Of a stretch of 64,000 bases of DNA, positions 48,835 through 64,000 are shown one piece after another (the first letter of the stretch is position 1; every line of letters starts with the position of its first letter). The notes under the pieces are model-generated. The model was not told the origin of the DNA, searched no databases, and saw only the letters and a list, made by a program, of their open reading frames with translations. The DNA is from Fibrobacter sp. Lineage in GTDB: Bacteria > Fibrobacterota > Fibrobacteria > Fibrobacterales > Fibrobacteraceae. Location of the stretch: positions 1 to 64,000 of the forward strand of contig NZ_JAFZKX010000006.1 in the NCBI RefSeq assembly GCF_017551775.1, read 5' to 3'. Made by a program: the position numbers and the translations under genes.

Positions 48835-50022
48835 ATGAGTTCAAAGAAAGCCACTAGCGCAAAGAAACCGGCGGCGAAGGCTGCTGCCAAGAAGCCCGCG
48901 GCTCCCGCTAAGAAGCCTGCCGCTAAGGCCGCTCCGGCAAAGAAGCCCGCAGCCAAGCCGGCTCCCGCTAAGAAGCCCGCTCCGGCAAAGGCCCCCGCGA
49001 AGAAGCCTGCCGCAAAGCCCGCTCCTGCCAAGAAGCCCGCAGCCAAGCCGGCTCCCGCTAAGAAGCCCGCTCCGGCAAAGGTTCCGGCTAAGAAGCCTGC
49101 CGCAAAGCCCGCTCCTGCCAAGAAGCCCGCAGCCAAGCCGGCTCCCGCTAAGAAGCCCGCTCCGGCAAAGGCTCCCGCGAAGAAGCCTGCTGCAAAGCCC
49201 GCTCCTGCCAAGAAGCCCGCAGCCAAGCCGGCTCCTGTAAAGCCGCAGGCCAGTGCAGCTAAGAAGAACGACGTGAAGACTTCTGCCGCAAAGCCGGTCG
49301 AAACCAAGGCTCCTGCTAAGGCGGTCAAGGCTCCCGAAAAGGTGAGCGTGAAGCCGGTTGAAAAGCCCGTGGAAAAAATTGTCGAGAAGCCCAAGGCCGT
49401 AGCTCCCGAGAAGGAAGCTCCGGCAGTGCAGGCCGCTCCCGAACCGAAGCCCGTAGTTGTGGAAGCCGAAGAACCTGCGGTCGCCGAAAAGGCAGCTCCT
49501 GCGGGCAACAACAAGAAGTTTGTCCCGTTCGCAATCCTTCTGCAGGGTGGCAAGAAGCTCTCGAAGACCATCATGTTCACCGAGGTGAACGAAGAGGCCG
49601 AGCGCGTCAACCAGAAGAAGGTTTCTTCCGACGCGAAGCTCGAAAGGAAGCCGACGATGTCTATCCGTCACAAGCTTTCTCTCGCTGAAGAAACGCAGGA
49701 AGAACTGACGGAACGCATCCTCAAGGAACTCGAGGAACAGAACGCCGCGTTCACGCGCGAGGCCGCCACGCAGATGTGCACCCGCTGCAACCGCAATCTC
49801 GTTTCCCCGGAATTCTGGGTCGACAAGCATCTCGGTTACTGCGAGGAATGTGCCGCCATCCTCAAGCTCGGTCAGTCCAAGGAAGCCCGCAAGGTCGAAT
49901 ACACGCTCGGCTCGATGGGCGGTGACTCGCTCGACGAGGCGGATGACGAGGATTTCGAAGGACCGGACGCCGCCGACCTGAAGGAAGCGGAAGAAGATCT
50001 CGCCGAACTCGAAGACAACTAG
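48835..50022 (+). CDS. Lys/Ala/Pro repeat protein with C-terminal zinc finger
   Basis: A 395-residue protein of two parts. Residues ~1-145 are made of AKKPA-like units (Lys/Ala/Pro only), resembling histone H1 tails and bacterial histone-like AlgP proteins, so they likely bind nucleic acid through charge. Residues ~145-235 are variable and acidic-basic. The C-terminal part from ~235 holds a folded domain with four zinc ligands, Cys315, Cys318, Cys336 and Cys339 in CTRCNRN ... YCEECA, DksA/TraR-like in spacing, then a tail rich in Asp and Glu. Function unknown; a nucleoid- or RNA-polymerase-associated role is plausible. It follows the cyclophilin by three bases. Confidence 0.7.
   Translation: MSSKKATSAKKPAAKAAAKKPAAPAKKPAAKAAPAKKPAAKPAPAKKPAPAKAPAKKPAAKPAPAKKPAAKPAPAKKPAPAKVPAKKPAAKPAPAKKPAAKPAPAKKPAPAKAPAKKPAAKPAPAKKPAAKPAPVKPQASAAKKNDVKTSAAKPVETKAPAKAVKAPEKVSVKPVEKPVEKIVEKPKAVAPEKEAPAVQAAPEPKPVVVEAEEPAVAEKAAPAGNNKKFVPFAILLQGGKKLSKTIMFTEVNEEAERVNQKKVSSDAKLERKPTMSIRHKLSLAEETQEELTERILKELEEQNAAFTREAATQMCTRCNRNLVSPEFWVDKHLGYCEECAAILKLGQSKEARKVEYTLGSMGGDSLDEADDEDFEGPDAADLKEAEEDLAELEDN
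48946..49236 (+). repeat. Three-and-a-bit 90-base tandem repeats in the Lys/Ala/Pro gene
   Basis: Three full 90-base units start at 48946, 49036 and 49126; a partial fourth begins at 49216. Each unit encodes 30 residues. The second unit has a block with changed codons (AAGGTTCCGGCTAAG instead of AAGGCTCCCGCGAAG or similar), so the copies are not identical. Confidence 0.9.
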
Positions 50023-51595: not shown

Positions 51596-52012
51596 TTAAT
51601 TCTGCTGTACCCAGATGTCGACGTTCTGGGGCTTTGCCTGGTTCGGCCTGTAATTGCTTTGCTTCATGGCCGCATTGTTGGCGGTCAGGCAGTGGTCCAG
51701 ATTCCCGGCTTTAACATCTTTCACGTAGCACTTGGTCTTGACTTCCGCGTCGCGCGTGTATTTGGTCCTTGCGACCAGTTGTCCGTTCACTAAAAAGTCG
51801 AAATTCCCGTGCTTTCTTCCTTTGACGCAACGTCCTACGATGTCGTATTGTAGGCCCTGGTTGTCCATAAAATGCCAGGTGGCGGTTCGTACATGGAGCT
51901 CTTCGCAACTGACCGGACCGTTCATGGAACTTTCATCCTGTTCTTTTTGATACCCCGCACTGCAGGAACATAATATAAAAGCAGCTAAGCCAATGAATGC
52001 GAGACGAATCAT
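51596..52012 (-). CDS. Small lipoprotein of unknown function
   Basis: A 138-residue protein with a lipoprotein-like signal (MIRLAFIGLAAFILCSC), Cys17 being the likely lipidated residue. The mature part has a MORN-like strand turn, VGRCVKGRKHGNFDFLVNGQLVARTKY, suggesting a small beta domain. It has an AGGAGG ribosome site. It follows the PlsC-type gene by 22 bases on the same strand, so it may be the last gene of the leftward half of the polyene cluster, but the link is only positional. Confidence 0.55.
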   Translation of the reverse strand: MIRLAFIGLAAFILCSCSAGYQKEQDESSMNGPVSCEELHVRTATWHFMDNQGLQYDIVGRCVKGRKHGNFDFLVNGQLVARTKYTRDAEVKTKCYVKDVKAGNLDHCLTANNAAMKQSNYRPNQAKPQNVDIWVQQN

Positions 52013-52034
52013 TTTTCCTCCTTGAAAATAAAAA

Positions 52035-52814
52035 CTAGTGAACGTCGTGCTCTTTTTCCAGGACTTCCTTCATTTTCGCGGTAAGCAGGATTGCGCTTCG
52101 CGACATGGGCATGTCCTTGTAGGGGGCGACGGAAATATCCGGTAAGACTCGGAGATTGTAGATGTAGCGTTCGGTCGGGTGGAACTGGAGCATCTTGTCG
52201 TGCTTGCGCAGCCCGATTTTTTCGTTTCCGCCAAAATAGATGGGCACGACGTCCGTATTTGCAAAGAGCGCGAACCTAGCGGCCCCCTTCTTGAAGTACC
52301 ACGGCTCTCCCGGCTTGGAGCGAGTTCCTTCGGGGAAGATGATGAGGTTGTTGCCGTCTTCGAGCATCGACTTCTTGGCGCGTTCCAGTTGCTCATCGAA
52401 GGGGAGCGTGTTCGGGATGTAGAGGTTGCGGATGATGAGCGATATAAACTTGTTCTGAACGAGCGACCCTTTGACGATGCAGTTCGCGTTCGGGATGAGC
52501 GAGATGAGGATGACCACGTCGAGGAGCGAAGGATGGTTCGCGATGACGACCTTGCCCTTGATGCCTTTTAGCAGTTCGCGGTTCTCGACGCTCAGGCGCA
52601 TCGCTCCCGTGACTTCGATATACTTGACGAAGAACTGGAAGAAATGATTCACGAACTTGCGCGAGATGACGTTGAAGCGCTTTTCCGAGAAGCCCGCGAG
52701 AACGTGGAACAGCGGGAACAGCGACGTCGCGAGAATCAGGCTGCTGATTCCGAATACGGCGAACGACGAAAGCTTCGAAATCAGGCGGCGGAGGTATTTG
52801 ATGCGGCGAATCAT
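52035..52814 (-). CDS. PlsC-type lysophospholipid acyltransferase in the polyene cluster
   Basis: A 1-acyl-glycerol-phosphate acyltransferase-fold protein of 259 residues. The catalytic HxxxxD motif is in NHPSLLDV (~residue 98), and the substrate motif FPEGTRS at ~163. A hydrophobic N-terminal stretch (~15-40) anchors it in the inner membrane. In known aryl polyene clusters an acyltransferase of this type joins the polyene chain to a glycerol-like lipid. The start at 52814 shares one base with the stop of the ketosynthase-like gene (TGATG). Whether it uses the polyene or a fatty acid is inferred. Confidence 0.8.
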   Translation of the reverse strand: MIRRIKYLRRLISKLSSFAVFGISSLILATSLFPLFHVLAGFSEKRFNVISRKFVNHFFQFFVKYIEVTGAMRLSVENRELLKGIKGKVVIANHPSLLDVVILISLIPNANCIVKGSLVQNKFISLIIRNLYIPNTLPFDEQLERAKKSMLEDGNNLIIFPEGTRSKPGEPWYFKKGAARFALFANTDVVPIYFGGNEKIGLRKHDKMLQFHPTERYIYNLRVLPDISVAPYKDMPMSRSAILLTAKMKEVLEKEHDVH

Positions 52815-53428
52815 CAGGCTAACCTCTGGCGAATGAAGGCAATCGCTTCTTCGGCGGCGGTTTCGAATTTCCCTTCGAGGGGAGTCTTGTCGAGTTCCTT
52901 GCCCCCGCGGTTCTTGTCGGTGGTGAGCCTGAGCGCCAAAGCGCATACGGCGTTCGGGTAGGGCGTGCCTGCCACGGGCGCATACGTCTCGGGAATCTTC
53001 TCGTCGGCGAAAATAAAGAGGCGTTCGGTTTCGGAGCCCGCCTCGAGGGCGGCGATGCAGTCGCGCAGGCCGTCACGGAAGGCTTCGCGTCCCGAGAATA
53101 CGGCGGAATATCCGGCGGTGTTCTTCTCGAGGATGGTTGCGTTCGCAATCGACGCGTTGAATACGGAAAGGCTGAAATGCGCGGGCGACACGTTCCCGGT
53201 ATCGAGGAGGGCCTGCGAAATTTTGTACTGCTGGGTGATTTCGCCGTACTGCGATGCGAAGGTCACCTTGCAGGGTTCGATATCCTTGCTTATGGCCGCG
53301 TTCACGTAGACAACCATCTTCGACAGCTGGCTCAGGCGCCTGCGCGTAAGCATGGGTACGAACTTCACGTCGGGGAGCGGTTGTTCCTCGGTCGGAATAA
53401 AGTATTCGGCTCGTTCGATATAGATCAT
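52814..53428 (-). CDS. Beta-ketoacyl synthase-like (chain-length-factor type, small)
   Basis: A 204-residue protein matching the small ketoacyl-synthase-like family (Ketoacyl-synt_2) found in aryl polyene and dialkylresorcinol clusters. Markers: MLTRRRLSQLSKM near residue 25, the FASQYGEITQQYKI strand, and SPAHFSLSVFNASIANATI, where the active-site Cys of normal synthases is replaced, here by Asn in FNAS. It probably cannot condense on its own and serves with a full ketosynthase, expected outside the window. Translated with the PlsC gene and 22 bases after the methyltransferase. Confidence 0.82.
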   Translation of the reverse strand: MIYIERAEYFIPTEEQPLPDVKFVPMLTRRRLSQLSKMVVYVNAAISKDIEPCKVTFASQYGEITQQYKISQALLDTGNVSPAHFSLSVFNASIANATILEKNTAGYSAVFSGREAFRDGLRDCIAALEAGSETERLFIFADEKIPETYAPVAGTPYPNAVCALALRLTTDKNRGGKELDKTPLEGKFETAAEEAIAFIRQRLA

Positions 53429-53450
53429 TTTCCCTTCCCGTCTTTAATTT

Positions 53451-54542
53451 CTACTTGATCCTGAACCTGAGGAGCGAGTAGCTGTTGGGGCCAACGCTGT
53501 GGTGGGCTTCCTTCAGTTCGAATCCGGCAATTTCGATGGCGTGCTTCAGTTCTTCGAAGCGGTACATCTTGGAGTTGCCGTTCGCGATGCAGGTAAAGTA
53601 GAGGGAGGTCGCCTGGAGGGAGTAGGCGGCGGCTTCGAAGCGCTGCTTGTCCCAGAGCGGTTCGAGCACGTACACGTCGGTGTCGGGTGCTGCCGCGGTG
53701 CGGATCTTCTTCAGGATTTTCGTGATTTCTTCGAGCGAGAAGCAGTCGAGGAACTGGCTCATCCAGACGGCGTTTGCACCCTTCGGGAATTCGGTCGTTT
53801 CGTCGAGGACGTTGCAGGGGATGGTATCGATGCGGTTTTCGAATCCGGCGGCCTTCGCGTTCTTCTCGGCGACGGCAGTCTGGCCCGGGAGGTCGATGAT
53901 GGAAACGTTCACGTCGGCGTTATACTTGCAGCAGGCGATGGCCCACTTCGCGGTGTTGCCGCCGATGTCGAACAGGCGCTTGCAGGGGTTCGAGAACACG
54001 ATGGGGAGCGCTTCGGGGAAGGCGAGGTCGGAGTAGAAGTGGTCGAAGCCGAACCAGCTCTTCTTTTGCTGGTCGGTCAGCTGCGAGAGGCCCTGGTAGA
54101 CCGTCTTCCAGTTGCCGAGGTGCTTGAGGCCCGCGGGCTTGCCGTCGCGGATGGATTCCTGGAGGTTTTCGGCGCCCAGGTAGCAGATGTCCTCGGAAAA
54201 GTCCATGTTGACCTGAGTCATTTCGTCGCTCATCAGGAAGAACCCGATCTTGCCGAGCGTGAGGCGGAGGTCGTCTTCCTTGGAATCCTTGTGCAGCTTG
54301 ATGGCACCCATGCCGAGTCCCATCTCGATGAGGACGCCGACACCGTAAAGCGAAATGCCGAGCTTCTGGGAGAGTTCGGATACAGTAATGCCCTTCTTGC
54401 GGGCGCTGCAAATTTCTTCAAGAATCCCCATGTCGCGCAGGGCCTTGGCTGCATGGAAACTGAGGGGAGCGAATGCGATTTTCTGGGCTTCGAACTTGGC
54501 GTCCGTGGCCGAAATTTTGTCTTGGAAGTAGTAGTCGAACAT
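53451..54542 (-). CDS. O-methyltransferase-like SAM-dependent enzyme in the polyene cluster
   Basis: A 363-residue class I methyltransferase of the plant-type O-methyltransferase group. An N-terminal winged-helix dimerisation domain (~1-110: MGILEEICSARKKGITVSELSQKLG, read in parts) precedes the SAM fold: RLFDIGGNTAKWAIACC at ~186 (motif I, here with Gly-Gly-Asn), VSIIDLPGQTAVAEKNAKAAG, and AVWMSQFLDCFS. Such enzymes are common in aryl polyene clusters, where they methylate the aryl head group or a ring carbon. Regiochemistry unknown. It begins the leftward transcript, divergent from the carrier proteins; element TAAATTTG lies 32 bases before the ATG. Confidence 0.82.
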   Translation of the reverse strand: MFDYYFQDKISATDAKFEAQKIAFAPLSFHAAKALRDMGILEEICSARKKGITVSELSQKLGISLYGVGVLIEMGLGMGAIKLHKDSKEDDLRLTLGKIGFFLMSDEMTQVNMDFSEDICYLGAENLQESIRDGKPAGLKHLGNWKTVYQGLSQLTDQQKKSWFGFDHFYSDLAFPEALPIVFSNPCKRLFDIGGNTAKWAIACCKYNADVNVSIIDLPGQTAVAEKNAKAAGFENRIDTIPCNVLDETTEFPKGANAVWMSQFLDCFSLEEITKILKKIRTAAAPDTDVYVLEPLWDKQRFEAAAYSLQATSLYFTCIANGNSKMYRFEELKHAIEIAGFELKEAHHSVGPNSYSLLRFRIK

Positions 54543-54574
54543 GGATTTTATTTTGGGTTGAAATTTTTTGATAT

Positions 54575-54635
54575 CAAATTTAGCACATTTTGGACGGAAC
54601 GTGGTTGACGCTGTATAACATTTTATCTATTTTTG
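54575..54635. promoter_or_regulatory. Divergent promoters of the polyene cluster
   Basis: Two exact TAnnTTTG elements back to back: TAAATTTG on the minus strand at 54575-54582 for the methyltransferase transcript, and TATTTTTG on the plus strand at 54628-54635, 22 bases before the first carrier protein. A TTGAC at 54605-54609 lies 18 bases before the plus element. The arrangement would fire both halves of the cluster from a 115-base gap. Confidence 0.5.
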
Positions 54636-54657
54636 CTTGCCAAATTAGGTTATAAAT

Positions 54658-54927
54658 ATGGACGAACTAAAAAATCGAATCAAGGAAATGATTGTTACGT
54701 CTCTCGAACTCGAAGACGTGACTGCTGCAGACATTGTCGAAGACGCTCCCCTTTTTGGCGAGAGCGAAAGGGGTCTCGGACTCGACTCCATCGACGCTCT
54801 TGAATTGGGTATTGCCATCAAGGAAACCTTCGGTGTTTCTTTCTCGGCGGCAAACGAAGATACCAAGAAGCATTTTTATTCTGTAGATACACTGGCCGCC
54901 TATATTTCGGCGAATATGCCCAAGTAA
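54658..54927 (+). CDS. Acyl carrier protein 1 of the polyene cluster
   Basis: An 89-residue carrier. The phosphopantetheine site is Ser in GLDSIDALELG (DSI motif, ~residue 43). It carries acyl intermediates for the ligase and condensing enzymes. Its N-terminus (MDELKNRIKEMIVTSLEL) is helix-forming. Nine bases before the second carrier gene. The presence of two carriers is typical of aryl polyene clusters. Confidence 0.9.
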   Translation: MDELKNRIKEMIVTSLELEDVTAADIVEDAPLFGESERGLGLDSIDALELGIAIKETFGVSFSAANEDTKKHFYSVDTLAAYISANMPK

Positions 54928-54936
54928 GGAGAAATT

Positions 54937-55194
54937 ATGGACAAGCAGGCGATTTTTGAAAAACTCAAGGCAGCCCTCATCGAGGATTTCGAACTTGATG
55001 ACGAACAGGTGACTCTCGAAGCTCGTCTTTACGAAGATTTGGAACTCGACAGCATCGACGCAGTTGACCTGATTGTGAAACTCAAGTCCCTTTTGCCGAC
55101 GAACATCGACCCCGAAGTGTTCAAGACGGTCCGTACCGTGCAGGACGTGGTCGACGCCATCTATAACCTGATTCAGAACGCGGAAAACAAGTAA
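54937..55194 (+). CDS. Acyl carrier protein 2 of the polyene cluster
   Basis: An 85-residue carrier with phosphopantetheine Ser in ELDSIDAVDLIVK (~residue 39). Less related to carrier 1 than expected from a recent duplication. AAGGAG ribosome site seven bases upstream. Its stop overlaps the ATG of the fused ligase gene (TAATG). Confidence 0.9.
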   Translation: MDKQAIFEKLKAALIEDFELDDEQVTLEARLYEDLELDSIDAVDLIVKLKSLLPTNIDPEVFKTVRTVQDVVDAIYNLIQNAENK

Positions 55195-57530
55195 TGAAAT
55201 CGGTGGCGGGGAAGGTTGTCTTTGCCGCCCTATCGGTTCTTTATCCTGTTCTCGTATTTTGTGGCCTCGAATTCTGGGGCCTTTCGCCTCGCCGATTAAG
55301 CTTGATGCTAATCGGCCTTGCTTTTGTGCATTTCTTCAATGTCACCAGGGAACGGGCTAAGGACGACGAGGGGTCGAACAGGGCGAATGTTGCCAAGAAC
55401 ATTTCGCTGCTCGTGCTGATGCTTCTGTGCGGGGCTCTCGCCTTTTTTGCCGACAACCTTTTGTTCCTCAAGTTCTACCCGGTGATGGTGAACTTGAGCC
55501 TGCTTTGCTTTTTTGCGTTTTCGCTCTGGAAAAAACCGAGTTTTGCGTTCCGCATGGCGAACCTGGGCGACAGGACCCTGCGTGTTTCTCCGGAGCGTCC
55601 GTTCGTGGAGCGCTACTGCGACCGCGTGACCCTCGTGTGGTGCGCCTTCTTCGTCGCGAACGCTTCCGTCGCTTTGTTCACCGCATTGGTGGGTAGCGAG
55701 CGGATGTGGACACTCTACAACGGTTTAATCTCCTATATTTTAATCGGCATTTTGTTTGCCGTGGAATTCATGGTCCGTAAAATTATGCAAAAAAAATTGC
55801 ACTCCTACGTGCCCGTTTGCGAACTGCAGCGGGATAGTCGCCCCGACGGGGCCATTGTCTGTTTTGATGGCGAATCCACAAGGACATGGGCTGATTTCGT
55901 ATCCGACGTGTCCAAGGTCCGTCGCTTCCTGGAATCGAGCGAGAACCGCCCGTGGATCCTCCATTGCGAAGATTCGTATTTCTTTATTGTCGCGCTCCTT
56001 TCGATGCTCCAGAGCGGGCGCAAGGCGATGGTGACCGCGAACCGCCAGGAAGCCTTCATCAAGGAAATCAAGAAGCCCGAGTACGGCTTCATTACCGATA
56101 CTCCGTTTGGAGACGCGTCTGCGGGCGCGGTTCAGATCCAGACGATTCTGGATGGTCCTGCGGTCGAACCCCTGTGGAATGTCTTTGACAAGAACGAAGC
56201 CGAGATGGTGATGTTCACTTCGGGTACGACAGGCGAGCCCAAGTCCGTGCCCAAGCGTTTCTCGCAGTTCGAGAACGAGCTTTATGAGCTGGTGAAGGTC
56301 TTCGGTGACGACTGGCTGGGCCGCAAGGTGTACAGCACGGTGAACCACCACCACATTTACGGCCTCCTGTTTACGGTTCTTTTGCCGACGGCGACGGGAC
56401 TTCCGTTCCGCAGGCACCGCATCGACTACCCGAGCGAACTTGTCAGCATTGCGGGCGAAAAGGCTGTAATCGCCTCTAGTCCGGCTTACCTCAAGCGCCT
56501 TGCCGCCGATACCGATAAGCCCATCGATTTCAAGTGCTCTCCGATTATCTATTCTTCGGGCGGACCGCTTCCCGAAGAGGTGGCGCGCAAGTGCGAAGGG
56601 ATTACGGGTTACTGGACCATGGAAATTTACGGCAGCACCGAGACGGGTGGCATCGCCTACAGGCAGTCCAAGAACGGGCCCGTGTGGAAGCCGTTCGAAG
56701 TCTGCAAGATGAGCATCGGTGAAAACGACTGCCTGAACGTGAAGTCCAGCTACATCCTGGAACCCGAGGGCTTTACCACGGGCGACCTCGTGGAAATCTA
56801 CGACGACGGCCGCTTCCTTCTGAAGGGACGCGCCGATTCCATCGTGAAAATCGAGGAAAAGCGCATCTCGCTCCCCGAAGTGGAAAACCGCCTGAAGCAG
56901 ACGGGCCTGGTGCAGGACGTCCGCGTTGTCCCGATGGTCGGCAACCGCCAGTACCTCGCTGCGGCAATCGTCTTGAATGCGGAAGGCCGCGAGAAGTTCA
57001 AGGACCAGCCCAAGCTCGAAATAAACAATTTCTTCAAGAAGCATCTGGCGCAGTTCATCGAGAATACGGTTTCGCCCAAGAAGTGGCGCTACCTCGAGGA
57101 ACTCCCGCAGGATACGCAGGGCAAGATCAAGATGCGCGATATCCAGGCGCTGTTCGGCATTCCCGAAAGCCCGAATTTCAAAATCCTGAAGATGCGCCGC
57201 GAACCGGGTACGGTCACGCTCAAGATCGTGTTCCCGGAAACAAGCGACTACTACAACGGTCATTTCCCGTCGTTCAAGCTGCTTCCGGCCGTTGCGCAGG
57301 TCGACATGACCGTCATGCTTGCCCATGCCCTTCTCGGTACGCCCGAGGTTGTCGTGCGCATCCAGCGTACCAAGTTCAGCTACCCGATTTTGCCGAACGT
57401 TCCCGCCATCCTCGAGATGACCTACAAGGCGGAATCGTCCAAGCTCACATTCTCTTATACGCTCGAAGAAGGTCGCCCGCTTTCGGGTGGTACCCTTGTG
57501 CTTTCCGGAGACGAAAATGCGCGAACCTAA
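55194..57530 (+). CDS. Membrane domain / adenylate ligase / hotdog dehydratase fusion
   Basis: One 778-residue frame joins three proteins that are separate genes in E. coli-type aryl polyene clusters. Residues ~1-200: five or six transmembrane helices, like the COG4648 membrane protein. Residues ~205-640: an acyl/aryl adenylate-forming ligase, with the P-loop FTSGTTGEPKS at ~341, YGSTETGG at ~480 and the GDLVEIYDDGRFLLKGRADSIVKI hinge (read in parts); this activates the aryl acid and loads a carrier. Residues ~650-778: a FabZ/ApeI-like hotdog dehydratase with YNGHFPSFKLLPAVAQVD at ~688, whose His is the likely catalyst. No stop interrupts the frame. Confidence 0.85.
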   Translation: MKSVAGKVVFAALSVLYPVLVFCGLEFWGLSPRRLSLMLIGLAFVHFFNVTRERAKDDEGSNRANVAKNISLLVLMLLCGALAFFADNLLFLKFYPVMVNLSLLCFFAFSLWKKPSFAFRMANLGDRTLRVSPERPFVERYCDRVTLVWCAFFVANASVALFTALVGSERMWTLYNGLISYILIGILFAVEFMVRKIMQKKLHSYVPVCELQRDSRPDGAIVCFDGESTRTWADFVSDVSKVRRFLESSENRPWILHCEDSYFFIVALLSMLQSGRKAMVTANRQEAFIKEIKKPEYGFITDTPFGDASAGAVQIQTILDGPAVEPLWNVFDKNEAEMVMFTSGTTGEPKSVPKRFSQFENELYELVKVFGDDWLGRKVYSTVNHHHIYGLLFTVLLPTATGLPFRRHRIDYPSELVSIAGEKAVIASSPAYLKRLAADTDKPIDFKCSPIIYSSGGPLPEEVARKCEGITGYWTMEIYGSTETGGIAYRQSKNGPVWKPFEVCKMSIGENDCLNVKSSYILEPEGFTTGDLVEIYDDGRFLLKGRADSIVKIEEKRISLPEVENRLKQTGLVQDVRVVPMVGNRQYLAAAIVLNAEGREKFKDQPKLEINNFFKKHLAQFIENTVSPKKWRYLEELPQDTQGKIKMRDIQALFGIPESPNFKILKMRREPGTVTLKIVFPETSDYYNGHFPSFKLLPAVAQVDMTVMLAHALLGTPEVVVRIQRTKFSYPILPNVPAILEMTYKAESSKLTFSYTLEEGRPLSGGTLVLSGDENART

Positions 57531-58287
57531 GATGAAACCCGAAGACATGAAGTTTTGTGCCATCGTGCCGGTGTACCGCCACGAGAAGGCTTCGCGCGGG
57601 GTGGCCGAATCGCTTGCCGCACAGGGGCTCTCGGTAATCTTGGTCGATGACGGCAACGCGCCCGAGGGTCACGAGATTCTCGTGCAGATCGCAAGCGATG
57701 TCCCGAACACGACGCTCGTGACGCGCGAAAAGAACGGAGGCAAGGGAGCCGCGGTGATCAGCGGCCTCGAGGCTGCCTTCAATATGGGCTTTACCCACGC
57801 GCTCCAGGTGGATGCCGACGGGCAGCACGACATGGAGGCGATTCCGTTCTTCGTGAAGGCCGCGAAGAAGCATCCGTTGGACCTGGTCGCCGCGTTCCCG
57901 CAGTACGACATGTCCGTCCCCAAGGCTCGTGAACAGGGCCGCAAGATTACGAACTTCTGGGTCGCTATTGAGACGCTTTCCATGTCCATTCCCGATTCCA
58001 TGTGCGGGTTCCGCGTGTACCCGGTGAAGTTCGTGTGGCCAGTCGCAAAGAAAATCCGCACGTACCGTATGGGATTCGATATCGAAATCCTGGTGCGCCT
58101 CTCGTGGGCCGGACTCAAGATGTATTTCTATCCGATCAAGGTGAAGTATCCCGAAGACGGCGTTTCCAACTTCAGGGCCTTCGGTGACAACGTCGAAATT
58201 TCGTGGACCCATACCAAGCTTTGCTTCGGGATGCTCGTGCGCCTGCCGATGATTCTTGGCCGCCGCCTTTTCAAGAAGAAAAAATGA
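57517..58287 (+). CDS. Glycosyltransferase family 2 in the polyene cluster
   Basis: A 256-residue GT2 enzyme: VPVYRHEKASRGVAESLAAQGLSV at the N-terminus, VILVDDGN, GGKGAAVISGLEAAF, and the LQVDADGQHD metal-binding DxD. The C-terminal part keeps the family's RMGFDIEILVRLSW pattern. In E. coli-type clusters this domain is fused to the LpxL-like acyltransferase; here the two are separate but overlap (ATGA). Start at 57517 because GGAG lies six bases before it; an ATG at 57532 is the alternative. Probably sugar-modifies the lipid anchor. Confidence 0.83.
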   Translation: MREPKMKPEDMKFCAIVPVYRHEKASRGVAESLAAQGLSVILVDDGNAPEGHEILVQIASDVPNTTLVTREKNGGKGAAVISGLEAAFNMGFTHALQVDADGQHDMEAIPFFVKAAKKHPLDLVAAFPQYDMSVPKAREQGRKITNFWVAIETLSMSIPDSMCGFRVYPVKFVWPVAKKIRTYRMGFDIEILVRLSWAGLKMYFYPIKVKYPEDGVSNFRAFGDNVEISWTHTKLCFGMLVRLPMILGRRLFKKKK

Positions 58288-59243
58288 GTTCTGAGTCGCA
58301 ACAGTGGTTTGAAGTGAAGGAAGTCGGGGGAAGCCTTTGGCATTTCCGGTTCATGCTGTGGATTACCTGCCACCTGCCGCTCCGCGTGGTGGAACTCTGC
58401 ACGGCGGTGGTCTGCTTCTTCTTCTGGCTGGGGGCGTCTCCCGTGCGCAAGCGTTCCTCGGCGTACTTGAAGCGCCTTTTTGCGGTGCGCGGGAAGCGCA
58501 TGCCCTTCATGGCGACGTACAAACATGTGCTTTCTTTCGCGCTCTCGATGATCGAGAAACTGCTCGGCTGGCGTGGTGCCATCAAGTTGAACCGGGTGGA
58601 AACGCAGGGCGACGACCTCGACAAACTGGTGGAACAGCTCGATCGCGGGGAAGGCGCATTCCTGATTTGCTCCCACCTCGGTAACATGGAGATGCTGCGT
58701 TCGCTTACGGGCTACGGCGAAATCCATACGCACAGGCAGTTCAAGGTGTTTCCGGTTGTCGATTTCTCGGGAACCTCTAAGTTCAACGCGCTGCTCTACG
58801 AGCTGAATCCGGACCTCATGAATTCCGTGCTCGACGCGAACAAGATGAACGTGGATTCCGCCGTGTGGATGAAGGAGCAGATTGTCGCGGGTAACGTGGT
58901 GGCGATTGCGGGGGACCGCACTTCCGCCAATTCGCAGGGCCGCAACATCGAGATGGATTTCCTCGGCGATTCCGCCAATTTCCCCGAAGGCGCGTTTACG
59001 CTCGCGAGCATCTTGAATGCTCCGATATATTTCACCTTCGCGATCCGCAAGCACGATTTCGATATCCGCACTCCTTACGAGATGCATGTGGTGAAGGCCA
59101 CCACCTCTTTTGATTGCCCTCGGAAGGAACGTGCCGGAAAAATCAAGGATTTGGCACGCGAGTACGTGCAACTCCTCGAAAAATTGAGTCTACGCCACCC
59201 GTACCAGTGGTATAATTTCTACAATTTTTGGAATAAAACGTAA
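58284..59243 (+). CDS. LpxL/HtrB-like lysophospholipid acyltransferase
   Basis: A 319-residue late acyltransferase relative. After a hydrophobic N-terminal region (~25-60) the motif SHLGNMEML (~residue 133) supplies the catalytic His and Glu (HxxxxE type), and AGDRTSANSQGRNI matches the second conserved block of LpxL-like enzymes. In known aryl polyene clusters such an enzyme helps attach a fatty acyl group to the anchor. The ATG overlaps the GT2 stop by four bases. Confidence 0.82.
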   Translation: MSSESQQWFEVKEVGGSLWHFRFMLWITCHLPLRVVELCTAVVCFFFWLGASPVRKRSSAYLKRLFAVRGKRMPFMATYKHVLSFALSMIEKLLGWRGAIKLNRVETQGDDLDKLVEQLDRGEGAFLICSHLGNMEMLRSLTGYGEIHTHRQFKVFPVVDFSGTSKFNALLYELNPDLMNSVLDANKMNVDSAVWMKEQIVAGNVVAIAGDRTSANSQGRNIEMDFLGDSANFPEGAFTLASILNAPIYFTFAIRKHDFDIRTPYEMHVVKATTSFDCPRKERAGKIKDLAREYVQLLEKLSLRHPYQWYNFYNFWNKT

Positions 59244-59259
59244 TAAAGGATTGGTTACA

Positions 59260-60786
59260 ATGAAAACTATCGTTATTGGCTCCGAAAAGTTAACAATTGA
59301 ACAGGTCGTGGCCATTGCTAAGCGCCAGGTCATCGTGGAACTGGATTCGTCTTCCAGGTTCCAGAAAAAAATCGATGCCGGTGCGGAATTCCTTGACGAA
59401 GCCCTTGCCGAACACGGCGGTATCTACGGCGTGACGACCGGTTATGGCGATTCCTGCACGCAGGTTGTACCTCCTGACCATTATTACGATTTGCCCGTTA
59501 ACCTCACGCGTTTCCATGGTTGCGGTCTCGGAAACTACTTTGACGAAGAGACGACCCGCGCCATCATGGTGGTGCGCCTCAACACCCTCGCTCGTGGATT
59601 CTCCGGCGTGAGCTACGCCCTCCTCAAGATTATCATGACGTTCCTGCAGAACGACATCTTGCCGTTGATTCCGCAGGAAGGTTCCGTGGGCGCGAGCGGC
59701 GACCTGACTCCGCTCTCTTACCTCGCCGGCGCCGTAATCGGTGAACGCGACGTGCTTTACAAAGGCCAGCGCCGTCCCTCGAAGGATGTGATGGCCGAAC
59801 TCGGAATCACCCCGCACCGTTTCCGCCCGAAGGAAGCGATTGCCATCATGAACGGTACCGCCGTGATGAACGCTGTTGCCTGCATGGCCTACAGCCGCGC
59901 CGAATACCTTTCCGATTTGACATGCCGCATTACGGCCATGAACACGATTGCGATGAAGGGCAACGCCTACCACTTCTACGAACGCCTGTTCGCCGTGAAG
60001 CCGCACCCGGGTCTCGTGACCGCCGCGAAGAAGATGCGCGACGCGATGAACCTCGAAGTCGAAAAGAACGTGATTCCCGAAAAGATTCAGGATCCGTATT
60101 CCCTGCGCTGCGCTCCGCACGTGGTGGGCGTGTTCTACGATTCCGCTCCGCTCCTGCGCCAGCTTATCGAAATCGAGATGAATAGCGCGAACGACAATCC
60201 GATTATCGACCCCGAAACGAGGAACATCTTCCACGGTGGGCACTTCTACGGTGGCCATATCTGCCTTGCTATGGATACCCTCAAGAACATTGTCGCTAAC
60301 CTCGCTGACCTCCTGGACCGCCAGCTTGCGACGATCGTCGACATCAAGTTCAACCGCAGCCTGCCGCCTAACCTTTCGGGCAGCCAGGGCGAGTTCTCCA
60401 TCAACCATGGCTTCAAGGCCGTTCAGATCGGTGCCTCGGCATGGACCGCGGAAGCGCTCCACAACACGATGCCGATGAGCGTGTTTAGCCGTTCCACCGA
60501 ATGCCACAACCAGGACAAGGTGAGCATGGGTACCATCGCCGCCCGCGACTGCATCCGCGTAATCGAGCTTACCGAACAGGTGGCCGCCGCCGTGCTGCTC
60601 GCTTCGGCCCAGGCCCTCCGTATTCGCCTCGAACGCGGGGAAATTTTCGAAGTGCGCCTCGCCGGCGTCAAGAAGACGTACGACCAGGTGTTCGAATACT
60701 TCGCGCCGCTTGCCTGCGACCGCCAGCTCGAACCGGATCTCCGCAAGGCGCTCGAGCTCATCCGCGAAAAGTATTACGCTGTGTAA
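59260..60786 (+). CDS. Aromatic amino acid / histidine ammonia-lyase family
   Basis: A MIO-cofactor lyase of 508 residues. The cofactor is self-made from Ala145-Ser146-Gly147 in GSVGASGDLTPLSYLAG; catalytic Tyr62 lies in TTGYGDSC. It would deaminate tyrosine, phenylalanine or histidine to an unsaturated acid; in a polyene cluster the expected product is coumarate or cinnamate, the aryl starter. The selectivity loop reads NLTRFHGCG: Phe85-His86 where typical HutH has Ser-His, Rhodobacter TAL His-Leu, and plant PAL Phe-Leu. So the substrate cannot be read from this motif. No other histidine-degradation gene is near. RBS AAAGGA. Confidence 0.88.
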   Translation: MKTIVIGSEKLTIEQVVAIAKRQVIVELDSSSRFQKKIDAGAEFLDEALAEHGGIYGVTTGYGDSCTQVVPPDHYYDLPVNLTRFHGCGLGNYFDEETTRAIMVVRLNTLARGFSGVSYALLKIIMTFLQNDILPLIPQEGSVGASGDLTPLSYLAGAVIGERDVLYKGQRRPSKDVMAELGITPHRFRPKEAIAIMNGTAVMNAVACMAYSRAEYLSDLTCRITAMNTIAMKGNAYHFYERLFAVKPHPGLVTAAKKMRDAMNLEVEKNVIPEKIQDPYSLRCAPHVVGVFYDSAPLLRQLIEIEMNSANDNPIIDPETRNIFHGGHFYGGHICLAMDTLKNIVANLADLLDRQLATIVDIKFNRSLPPNLSGSQGEFSINHGFKAVQIGASAWTAEALHNTMPMSVFSRSTECHNQDKVSMGTIAARDCIRVIELTEQVAAAVLLASAQALRIRLERGEIFEVRLAGVKKTYDQVFEYFAPLACDRQLEPDLRKALELIREKYYAV

Positions 60787-60798
60787 TGCGGTAACGTC

Positions 60799-61239
60799 AT
60801 GGCAGAAAAGAAACTCAAGGAAACGGTCGAGTTCAAGGTCGAATTCTACGATGTGGATTCGATGAAGGTGGCATGGCACGGCAACTACGTGAAGTACATG
60901 GAAATTGCCCGCTGCGCCCTCCTCACCAAGATAAAGTACGATTACTTCGCCATGGAAGAGAGCGGGTACGCCTGGCCCGTGGTCGATATGCATATAAAGT
61001 ATCTTCGCCCGATGATCTTTATGCAGCGCATCCGCGCCGAGGTCACGCTCGAAGAATACGAAGTCTGCATGAAGCTTTCGTACAAGTTCTTTGACGCCGA
61101 GACGGGCGTACTTTTGACCCGTGCCGAAAGCATGCAGATGGCTGTCGACATGAACAAGCGCGAATCGATGATGGGCTGCCCGCAGTGCTTTATCGAACGC
61201 GTTCGTGCGGCGCTCGCCGAGGAAGAGACTGCGGCATGA
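60799..61239 (+). CDS. YbgC/4-hydroxybenzoyl-CoA thioesterase-like hotdog enzyme
   Basis: A 146-residue hotdog-fold thioesterase. The FYDVDSMKVAWHGNYVKYMEIAR segment matches the YbgC motif (YxDTDAxGxVYHxxYL), with the Asp of the first part kept. It hydrolyses acyl thioesters (CoA or carrier protein). In aryl polyene clusters this gene is usual and may release or proof-read intermediates. Its stop overlaps the next gene's ATG (ATGA). Confidence 0.85.
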   Translation: MAEKKLKETVEFKVEFYDVDSMKVAWHGNYVKYMEIARCALLTKIKYDYFAMEESGYAWPVVDMHIKYLRPMIFMQRIRAEVTLEEYEVCMKLSYKFFDAETGVLLTRAESMQMAVDMNKRESMMGCPQCFIERVRAALAEEETAA

Positions 61240-61931
61240 GACGTATCGCTAGAGGGATAGGCCTGCTCGCGCTTTCTGCGGTTCTCGCATTCGCGGGGGC
61301 TGGGGATGCCGCCGGTGTTTACAAGAAGCCGCTTTCGGCGGAATCGAAGCCCGCGATGCTCCAGTCGATGAAGGTCCTCACCGAAAGTCCGCTTACGGTC
61401 GGGAATTTCAAGCAGACGCGCACGATTACGAAGCTGAACCGCGAATTCGTTTCGACAGGTTCCTTTGCCATCGACCGCGTCTCGGGAATCCTCTGGGATA
61501 CGCAGAAGCCGTTCCCGTCGGTGCTTTGGGTGGGCGACAATTCCATTGTCCAGTGGGATCTTTCGCGCGATACGAAGAAGACGATGTCGGCGAAGGACAA
61601 TCCGGTGTTCGCGGAATTCTCGAAGACCATCCAGTCGGTATTTTCGGGACAGTTCGACGAACTGGATCGCAACTTCAAGCTCTTTTTTGAAAAGAAGGCT
61701 GCCGGTTTCGATATCGGGCTTGTCCCCAAGGAAAACGCTGTCGCTCGCGTTATAGCGTCGATTACCCTTACGGGGCGTACGGAACTTGAAAAGGTGACGA
61801 TTGTCGATGGGGAAGGGAATACCGTGGTGTACGAGTTCTCTGCCCAGGCGCATTTCAAGGATCTTGAATCGGTGAACGCTCCGTTCGACAAGCTTGCTCT
61901 CCGTTTTTTGAAACTGAAATCTGCGAAATAA
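61236..61931 (+). CDS. LolA-like outer-membrane lipoprotein carrier of the polyene cluster
   Basis: A 231-residue exported protein. Residues 1-26 are a signal peptide. The rest fits the LolA half-barrel: FKQTRTITKLNREFVSTGSFAID and GILWDTQKPFPSVLWVGDNSIVQWD strands (read in parts), and a C-terminal LTGRTELEKVTIVDGEGNTVVYEF strand pair. The hydrophobic cavity may carry the lipid-linked polyene across the periplasm. Four-base overlap with the thioesterase gene. Confidence 0.82.
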   Translation: MRRIARGIGLLALSAVLAFAGAGDAAGVYKKPLSAESKPAMLQSMKVLTESPLTVGNFKQTRTITKLNREFVSTGSFAIDRVSGILWDTQKPFPSVLWVGDNSIVQWDLSRDTKKTMSAKDNPVFAEFSKTIQSVFSGQFDELDRNFKLFFEKKAAGFDIGLVPKENAVARVIASITLTGRTELEKVTIVDGEGNTVVYEFSAQAHFKDLESVNAPFDKLALRFLKLKSAK

Positions 61932-61997
61932 AACCGTCGTGGCGGTCGGGGCGTATTGGGCCCGCGATGTGGCCGCCATCCGGGAGAAAAATTGGAT

Positions 61998-64000
61998 ATG
62001 AAAGGTACGCGAAAAAAAGTAGCTTCGGTAATATTGTGGGTGGCGATACACGCCGCCTTCGTGTTGCTTGGGCTCTTGCTGCCTTGGAATATCGAGACCG
62101 ATCTGTATTCGGTTTTGCCGGATTCGAGCGAATTCAGGAATGTCGCGGAAGCGGAAAAGGCCCTGAGCGCGCATTCGATGCGGAACCTGACCGTATTGCT
62201 TGGGCATCGCGATTTCGCGGTGGCGAAATCCGCGGCGAGCGAACTCGAAGGGATTTTCGCCGGGGATAGTTCGCTTGCCGAGACCCGCTTGCGGGTCGGC
62301 GATGCCTCGATGCAGGAACTTCGCGATTTCTATTTCGGGTACCGTTATGTACTGCAGGGAAATGCGGTCCGTGACCTGCTGAAGCAGGGGGATGCGGCGA
62401 CCCTCAAGGACAACGCGCTCCAGAAGGTCTATGGCGCGTTCTCGCTTGCCGACTTGAGTCGGGTCGAAGAAGACCCCTTCCTGCTGGGCGACGAGGCTTT
62501 TGAACATTTCACGCTGAATTCGCCCCTCATGAACGGGCGTTTCACGCTTCGCGACGGTGTCCTTGCCGCCGAGGATTCCGCGGTCACTTACGTCATGTGG
62601 AGCGCCTCCCTTGCGGCGAATACTTCCGCGATGGCTTCCAGCGGCCATGTGCTGGAACGCCTCGACCGCGTGCTCGATTCGCTGCAGCGCGTTCACGAAG
62701 GCCTGCTCGTCGAAAAGTCGGGCGTGCCGTTCCACAGTTACGAGAGTTCCAAGAACGCGCAGTCCGAAGTGGCCTGGATTTCGGGCGTGTCCATGGCGCT
62801 CATCCTGCTTTTGCTGCTCTGGGTGTTCCGCACGCCAATCCCCATCGTGTCGACGTTTTTTGCAATCGGCGTGGCGATATGCGCTGCCCTTTCGGGTACC
62901 TGGGCCGTGTTCGGGAGCATCCATATTTTCACGTTCGTGTTCGGTACGAGCGTTATCGGCGTGAGTATCGACTACGCGATACACTTCTTTACGGAACGCC
63001 ACCATATTCTCAAGGGGCTTCTCCTCGGCTTCATGACGACGGAATTCAGCTACATCGCGCTCACCTTCGCCGATTTCCCGCTGTTGCGCCAGATGGCCGT
63101 GTTCTCGATAGTCGGGCTTGCGAGCTCTTTTGCGACAATCGTGCTCCTGTTCCCGAATCTTCCGCTGCCTTCGCATGCCGCGGAGGGCAAGCGTCCTCTT
63201 CCGACGCGGATTCCGGAACTCTTCCTTCGCGTGTACGACAGGTTCCCGCCGCGCTGGGTGCGTATTGCCGGTATCGTTTTCGCCCTCGTGCTCGTGCCCG
63301 GCGTGTTGAAGCTGGATGTGCATACCGACATGCGCACGCTCTATTCGATGAGCGAAAGTCTCAAGCGTTCCGAGGCTCTGAACGCGCGGCTTAACAACCT
63401 GGGAATTTCGGCGAATTACTTTATTGTGGAAGGCTCGTCGGAACAGGAACTCCTGGAAAACGAGGAAGCCCTTTCTGCACGCTTGCAGGTAGCGGTGAAG
63501 GATTCCCTGATGCGCGGGTTCCTTGCGACAAGTTCGTATATCCCTTCCGTCAAGACGCAGCAGGAAACTTTCGAAGGCATGCAGTCGCTTCGCCATTCGC
63601 AGGCCCTGCAAGAACTCCTGGAAAGCCTGAACGTTCCGGGCGATTCCCTCTTTGAATCGGGTTTCGCCTCTCCTGCGTATCTGGAACCTTCCTCGAAGAT
63701 TCCTTCGTCTTTCGCGAGCATCCTCGATATGCTCTGGATAGGCGAGGTGGACGGACGTTTTTACAGTGCCGTATTCCCGTTGCATGTCGCCGCGGGTTTC
63801 GACATCGGCAAGCAGGCCGCCGAATTGCCCCATGTGTATGCGGTGAACAAGATGGAAAACGTGAACGAGACGCTCACGCAGCTTTCCCGCGTGGCGCTCC
63901 TCCTTGTGGCGATTGCGTATGCGGTCGTGTTCCTGGTCCTGGTCTTTGTCTACGGGTTTGTCCCTGCGCTCCGGATTATCCGCGCTCCGGTCCTCTCGTG
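61998..64000 (+). CDS. MMPL/RND-family exporter of the polyene cluster (partial, 3' end outside window)
   Basis: An open frame from ATG 61998 to the right edge (667+ codons), with no stop. It starts with a positively charged N-terminus and a transmembrane helix (VILWVAIHAAFVLLGLLLPW), then a ~200-residue periplasmic domain, then a cluster of helices with GTSVIGVSIDYAIHFFTERH (~residue 321), the MMPL motif with the membrane Asp that drives proton-coupled export. A second half (helix near ~435, second periplasmic loop) begins before the edge. Probably exports the polyene lipid, with the LolA-like protein as partner. 66 bases follow the LolA-like gene. Confidence 0.85.
   Translation, partial: MKGTRKKVASVILWVAIHAAFVLLGLLLPWNIETDLYSVLPDSSEFRNVAEAEKALSAHSMRNLTVLLGHRDFAVAKSAASELEGIFAGDSSLAETRLRVGDASMQELRDFYFGYRYVLQGNAVRDLLKQGDAATLKDNALQKVYGAFSLADLSRVEEDPFLLGDEAFEHFTLNSPLMNGRFTLRDGVLAAEDSAVTYVMWSASLAANTSAMASSGHVLERLDRVLDSLQRVHEGLLVEKSGVPFHSYESSKNAQSEVAWISGVSMALILLLLLWVFRTPIPIVSTFFAIGVAICAALSGTWAVFGSIHIFTFVFGTSVIGVSIDYAIHFFTERHHILKGLLLGFMTTEFSYIALTFADFPLLRQMAVFSIVGLASSFATIVLLFPNLPLPSHAAEGKRPLPTRIPELFLRVYDRFPPRWVRIAGIVFALVLVPGVLKLDVHTDMRTLYSMSESLKRSEALNARLNNLGISANYFIVEGSSEQELLENEEALSARLQVAVKDSLMRGFLATSSYIPSVKTQQETFEGMQSLRHSQALQELLESLNVPGDSLFESGFASPAYLEPSSKIPSSFASILDMLWIGEVDGRFYSAVFPLHVAAGFDIGKQAAELPHVYAVNKMENVNETLTQLSRVALLLVAIAYAVVFLVLVFVYGFVPALRIIRAPVLS

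Follow-up and report, generated by a model that had tools for sequence, protein, structure and literature searches.

We assign a gene cluster at the right end of the 64,000-nucleotide window analysed here (bases 1-64000 of contig C6, from the 3.2 Mb, 98% complete Fibrobacter sp. genome G000) as a complete set of genes for making and exporting an aryl polyene (APE), of the lyase-bearing type known from Vibrio, Shewanella and Pseudomonas, with a probability of roughly 0.8. The cluster spans 51596-68554, running past the window on a contig that ends at 68815, and its two divergent arms flank a 115-base gap. Going outward, the left arm encodes a methyltransferase, a Ketoacyl-synt_2 protein, a lysophospholipid acyltransferase and a small lipoprotein, and the right arm encodes two acyl carrier proteins (ACPs), a 778-residue fusion, a GT2 glycosyltransferase, an LpxL-type acyltransferase, an aromatic ammonia-lyase, a 4HBT thioesterase, a LolA protein and an MMPL exporter. 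The last 4.8 kb of the contig add DUF3261, ketosynthase (KS), ApeP-type dehydratase, FabG/FlxB-type ketoreductase (KR) and second ketosynthase genes (Table 1). An earlier note on this DNA had read the window part as an APE cluster and predicted that a ketoreductase and two ketosynthases would follow the exporter; these three genes lie less than 5 kb to the right on the same contig. The proteins that it listed and the gap at 54543-54657 were likewise recovered at the same places and strands in our open reading frames (ORFs) and Pfam matches.

The assignment rests on gene set, gene order, domains, catalytic motifs and conservation. Relative to the E. coli CFT073 apeA-R cluster (L191; gene names after PMC8253772), counterparts of ApeB to ApeR are all present, and ApeA alone was matched by position only. 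The features that define APE clusters were found throughout: the ketosynthase-chain length factor pair ApeO-ApeC with a second ketosynthase, ApeR; two ACPs, an acyl-ACP ligase, a ketoreductase and the dehydratases ApeI and ApeP; and a complete attachment and export set of ApeD, ApeJ, ApeK, ApeL (LolA-like), ApeM (MMPL) and ApeN (DUF3261). Consistent with APE synthesis, no enoyl reductase was found among the unassigned ORFs of the cluster. The nearest solved structures of ApeC, ApeO, ApeP and ApeR are listed in Table 1, with the roles of 6QSP and the Acinetobacter baumannii structures taken from PMC8358021. The ACP serines, the Cys-His-His residues of both active ketosynthases, the KR motif, the adenylation motifs and the Ala-Ser-Gly that forms the methylidene-imidazolone (MIO) group are intact, and ApeC lacks the KS motifs, as expected of a chain length factor. 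Most cluster proteins are 92-100% identical to those of a near relative, G129, and the ratio of nonsynonymous to synonymous substitution rates (dN/dS) between the two is 0-0.22 for every gene, which indicates purifying selection. Many Fibrobacter genomes share the arrangement, which, together with the low dN/dS, argues that the cluster is more than chance. Within the open-access literature that we searched, a scope outside which the founding 2014 survey falls, no APE cluster is described in Fibrobacter or its phylum, and a search for yellow pigment in Fibrobacter returned Ruminococcus reports only.

By analogy with known APE systems, the lyase would deaminate tyrosine to 4-coumarate, which the ApeH part of the ApeG-ApeH-ApeI fusion would load onto ApeE. 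ApeO-ApeC and ApeR would then elongate the starter with malonyl units, with reduction by ApeQ, dehydration by ApeI and ApeP, and no enoyl reduction, affording a conjugated polyene. ApeB would methylate the ring and ApeK assist release, while ApeD and both ApeJ halves may join the polyene acid to a lipid. ApeL, ApeM and ApeN are predicted to transport the lipid-bound product to the outer membrane; its lipid anchor, colour and role there as an antioxidant pigment we infer from the same analogy.

The lyase has the aromatic lyase fold (PF00221) with the MIO-forming GASG at 147-150, and its signature of Phe/Tyr-His, GASG and HNQD is invariant across the lyase-bearing clusters compared, including H89, which aligns with the His of tyrosine aminomutase. 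The Gln of NQD favours tyrosine or phenylalanine ammonia-lyase (TAL or PAL) over histidine ammonia-lyase (HAL), for which a QED motif with a catalytic Glu is typical. Assignment as the histidine ammonia-lyase HutH was rejected, as the TIGR01225 score was 386 bits against a cut-off of 539 and CHNQD stands in place of QED. Where the characterised RsTAL has a His-Leu pair, the window lyase has the Phe/Tyr-His pair with NQD. FlxA also departs from the RsTAL pattern, combining a HAL-like motif 1 with a TAL-like motif 2, yet is a proven TAL (PMC3992019). The window enzyme is probably a TAL, and its role as supplier of the aryl starter appears well supported by genomic context, by these residues and by covariation with the ligase pocket. 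In E. coli, 4-hydroxybenzoate is made by UbiC and is the predicted APE starter (PMC8253772). UbiC passed its cut-off in none of the Fibrobacter genomes tested; with this usual source of 4-hydroxybenzoate absent, a start from tyrosine via coumarate is most likely.

The cluster itself is a real, complete and ordinary member of the APE family. New are the repeated losses of the lyase suggested below and a pattern in the pocket of the ApeH ligase, which comprises L392, Y453, S455 and G486 (fusion numbering). All 102 lyase-bearing clusters examined, drawn from Fibrobacterota, Spirochaetota, Gamma- and Betaproteobacteria, have S455 and G486, nearly always with L392 and usually with Y or F453. Twenty lyase-less clusters, 14 from three clades of Fibrobacteraceae and six from Enterobacterales, have A455, a residue other than Gly at 486, L/I/V453 and T/P/A392. 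Among 426 ApeH columns, exactly four split the lyase-bearing ligases from every one of four clades without a lyase (three within Fibrobacteraceae, the fourth being the enterobacteria that use 4-hydroxybenzoate), in a test that left out six lyase-less clusters with an S/G pocket. These columns fall in the HIYGLLF segment, in the SSGG motif and directly after YGSTETG, segments that presumably line the acyl pocket, judging from known 4-coumarate:CoA ligase structures. Fibrobacteraceae alone display three residue solutions, ALAA, TLAC and PLAI. A ligase tree built without the pocket columns, which has long branches, places four pocket changes, with the lyase absent at each. Furthermore, G110 and G118 carry a complete lyase-less cluster of the TLAC type and a detached two-gene unit of an LYSG-type ApeH-ApeI ligase and a lyase, so that the lyase stays with an S/G ligase even apart from the cluster. 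The independent contrasts are few and gave three concordant cases, none discordant and three without a pocket change (sign test p = 0.25). The four columns first came to notice in the Fibrobacter set, so that the later check on plasmid records alone counts as an independent test.

Overall, the pattern suggests a starter switch between coumarate and 4-hydroxybenzoate. We tentatively propose, at slightly less than even odds, that two APE starter types can be read at positions 392, 453, 455 and 486: L-(Y/F)-S-G with a lyase would take 4-coumarate, and x-L-A-(I/C/A/V) without one would take 4-hydroxybenzoate or another benzoate. On this reading, Fibrobacteraceae would have gone over from the first type to the second on at least three occasions and would have converged on the pocket seen in enterobacteria, and lyase-less species with the first pocket (G113, G126 and some soil Burkholderiaceae) may take plant coumarate. 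A general rule that lyase-less clusters scavenge coumarate was dropped, since the pocket is remodelled in most of them; so was a one-to-one rule between pocket and lyase, since the six clusters left out above retain the lyase-type pocket.

The lyase is missing from otherwise kept clusters in G083, G086, G091, G093, G094, G113, G126 and genus g6, and the lyase slot is closed in those that were read; inspection of six lyase-less Fibrobacter clusters ORF by ORF revealed no replacement. G071, G072 and G080 lack both lyase and methyltransferase, while in G120, G135 and G136 the methyltransferase is the sole missing gene. A tree of ApeR and ApeQ gave seven lyase state changes as scored, or about six once G047 is set aside as mis-scored, its locus being cut and its lyase sitting on another contig. 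The ligase tree gave four or five losses within Fibrobacteraceae, and together the trees suggest that this family lost the lyase repeatedly, about four to six times. The ligase tree places G093 with G094 and G091 but the ApeR tree does not, a hint that the ligase-lyase segment may have been exchanged. Apparent loss of ApeR, ApeQ and the exporter in G074-like genomes was rejected, as G074, G132 and their kin have a cluster split over two loci (L047 with L178; L179), with ApeD, ApeL, ApeM, ApeQ and ApeR on a different contig from the lyase-bearing part. As for recognised makers of 4-hydroxybenzoate in lyase-less Fibrobacter, UbiC did not pass its cut-off, and an Rv2949c-like chorismate lyase was found in G143 only.

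Comparison with known systems places the Fibrobacter cluster closest to lyase-bearing APE clusters of the APE_Vf kind (Vibrio, Photobacterium, Shewanella, Pseudomonas, Methylobacter), which share its gene set in an almost unchanged order, together with its lyase signature and ligase pocket. In clusters of Vibrio, Photobacterium, Shewanella, Pseudoalteromonas, Pseudomonas and methanotrophs, the lyase is 56-59% identical and occupies the same slot, between the ApeJ acyltransferase and ApeK, and the Vibrio cluster also has an opposite-strand methyltransferase at its left end. Unlike the APE_Vf kind, Fibrobacter has ApeG, ApeH and ApeI as one protein and ApeC-ApeD in the opposite arm. E. coli CFT073 (PMC8253772) has genes E to R in the same order, whereas A-D are inverted in Fibrobacter; it has no lyase, a T-L-A-I pocket, separate ApeG, ApeH and ApeI, and a single ApeJ, in contrast to the fused G-H-I and the ApeJ split in two here. 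The A. baumannii cluster (L202, CP035931; PMC8041823) resembles that of Fibrobacter in its lyase, its ligase fused to ApeI and its S/G pocket, but its ApeG is separate from that fusion. Spirochaetota clusters have a lyase 61-72% identical to that of Fibrobacter, although some contigs are too short for the slot to be seen. In the Spirochaetota/Treponema metagenome contigs L096-L102, the lyase is nearer to that of Fibrobacter than any from a Proteobacterium, and a transfer between gut bacteria is likely.

The earlier note also placed the cluster in the flexirubin class, whose products in Bacteroidota are esters of a polyene acid with a dialkylresorcinol, and this part of its reading did not survive. 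Like the flexirubin cluster of Chitinophaga pinensis (PMC3992019), the Fibrobacter cluster pairs a presumed TAL with a ligase start and an FlxJ-family methyltransferase, and the FlxB and LolA2 models match as well. All of these models score under their curated cut-offs, however (FlxA, 342 versus 700 bits; FlxJ, 460 versus 560; FlxB, 260 versus 340; LolA2, 51 versus 125), and the export and acyltransferase genes keep APE order. The KASIII C-terminal domain (PF08541), present in 11 of 14 control genomes, was not found in G000. DarB, the ketosynthase of flexirubin makers, is KASIII-like, so this absence makes a DarB-type resorcinol synthase unlikely; no search for DarA was made. Nothing thus points to the resorcinol part, and the model cut-offs and the missing KASIII domain led us to reject membership in the flexirubin class, which we regard as very improbable.

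Two further alternatives accept the APE gene set and differ in what it makes. If the lyase were a PAL, the starter would be cinnamate from phenylalanine, or the lyase might act on another substrate. F88 is the residue that shifts RsTAL towards phenylalanine when it replaces H89, and PDB 2o78, the Phe-for-H89 variant of RsTAL with activity towards phenylalanine, is the best single-sequence match of the window lyase. The next residue here is nonetheless the invariant H89, and the head groups of APEs and flexirubins are known to bear a precursor-derived 4-hydroxyl (PMC8253772, PMC3992019), which leaves this option unlikely. A decaying or silent cluster that yields no product in this species would fit its patchy presence among 168 Fibrobacterota genomes, of which 55 have the methyltransferase, 58 have ApeR, 60 have the G-H-I fusion, 61 have ApeM and 61 have the lyase, the last count taking in distant homologues of 33-39% identity outside such clusters. 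Some relatives also have a split cluster or lack the lyase or methyltransferase. The window genes are all free of internal stops, however, and with the low dN/dS and intact motifs we give decay scarcely any weight.

Several observations weigh against the conclusions drawn here. Half or more of the Fibrobacterota genomes are without the cluster, which is thus not essential. TAL specificity is not safely predictable from sequence alone, as the authors of PMC3992019 caution. The S/G pocket persists in six clusters that have no lyase (G113, G126, three Cupriavidus and Caballeronia sp. M1242), with one replicon searched for each of the last four. Finally, A. baumannii ApeH, of the S/G type and with a lyase in the cluster of the record examined, loads 4-hydroxybenzoate in vitro (PMC8041823, PMC8358021), and coumarate goes unmentioned in both papers. 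The APE cluster of that record, CP035931, carries a lyase and an S/G pocket, whereas published models and assays for A. baumannii take 4-hydroxybenzoate as the starter.

The lyase of many APE clusters often has no more specific annotation than ammonia-lyase, and for one system that bears it the published models take 4-hydroxybenzoate for granted; if the proposal is true, the four-residue pattern would tell which APE clusters begin with coumarate instead. For Fibrobacter, an antioxidant pigment in an anaerobic fibre digester would bear on how the cells deal with oxygen while they are attached to plant fragments.

Table 1. Features of the Fibrobacter APE cluster and of the detached ligase-lyase units in two relatives.
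Feature	Position	Strand	Basis and remarks
Small lipoprotein, ApeA by position only	51596..52012	-	ORF; matches neither Pfam nor E. coli ApeA; retained at this end of the cluster in several relatives
ApeD, lysophospholipid acyltransferase	52035..52811	-	PF01553; E. coli ApeD E 5e-27; ORF listed to 52946, relatives' alignment begins at about residue 45
ApeC, chain length factor	52814..53428	-	PF13723; 6qsp_B, 7f28_A; E. coli ApeC E 7e-25; no KS catalytic motifs
ApeB/FlxJ-type methyltransferase	53451..54542	-	NF053543 460 bits (cut-off 560); 47% to E. coli ApeB
Divergent intergenic region, 115 bases	54543..54657	.	ORF layout
ApeE, ACP	54658..54927	+	52% to E. coli ApeE
ApeF, ACP	54937..55194	+	56% to E. 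coli ApeF
ApeG-ApeH-ApeI fusion (membrane part, acyl-ACP ligase, C-terminal dehydratase)	55194..57530	+	PF00501, PF22818; E. coli ApeG, ApeH, ApeI align in order
ApeJ N-terminal half, GT2	57487..58287	+	PF00535; true start probably near 57532; aligns with E. coli ApeJ 8-242 at 49%
ApeJ C-terminal half, LpxL-type acyltransferase	58284..59243 (ORF listed from 58203)	+	PF03279; E. coli ApeJ 243-549
Aromatic amino acid ammonia-lyase	59251..60786 (ATG at 59260)	+	PF00221 E 1e-153; F88-H89, GASG, CHNQD
ApeK, 4HBT thioesterase	60799..61239	+	44% to E. coli ApeK
ApeL, LolA-like carrier	61185..61931	+	PF03548; E. coli ApeL E 1e-20; true start probably near 61236
ApeM, MMPL exporter	61956..64289 (window edge 64000)	+	E. 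coli ApeM counterpart
ApeN, DUF3261	C6:64243-64902, past window	+	E. coli ApeN counterpart
ApeO, ketosynthase	C6:64899-66092, past window	+	6qsp_A; E. coli ApeO counterpart
ApeP-type dehydratase	C6:66076-66570, past window	+	6qsr_B; E. coli ApeP counterpart
ApeQ, ketoreductase	C6:66594-67331, past window	+	E. coli ApeQ counterpart
ApeR, second ketosynthase	C6:67331-68554, past window	+	7f27; E. coli ApeR counterpart
Detached ligase-lyase unit between argJ-like and uvrA-like genes	L180:11690-15163; L091:8054-11527		G110 and G118

APE genes also occur on a conjugative plasmid and a mobilizable plasmid (L195, Moellerella wisconsensis pW1-a, and L192, Enterobacter asburiae p1MP4m4, respectively), and the pathway may spread in this way. 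The missing PF08541, the KASIII/FabH C-terminal domain, in a genome that is 98% complete also bears on the priming of fatty acid synthesis. Adjoining the left neighbour of the cluster, positions 48835-50022 encode a protein of 395 residues that has long repeats of Lys, Ala and Pro (KKPAAKPAPAK) and a Cys-rich C-terminal part (CTRC...CEEC).

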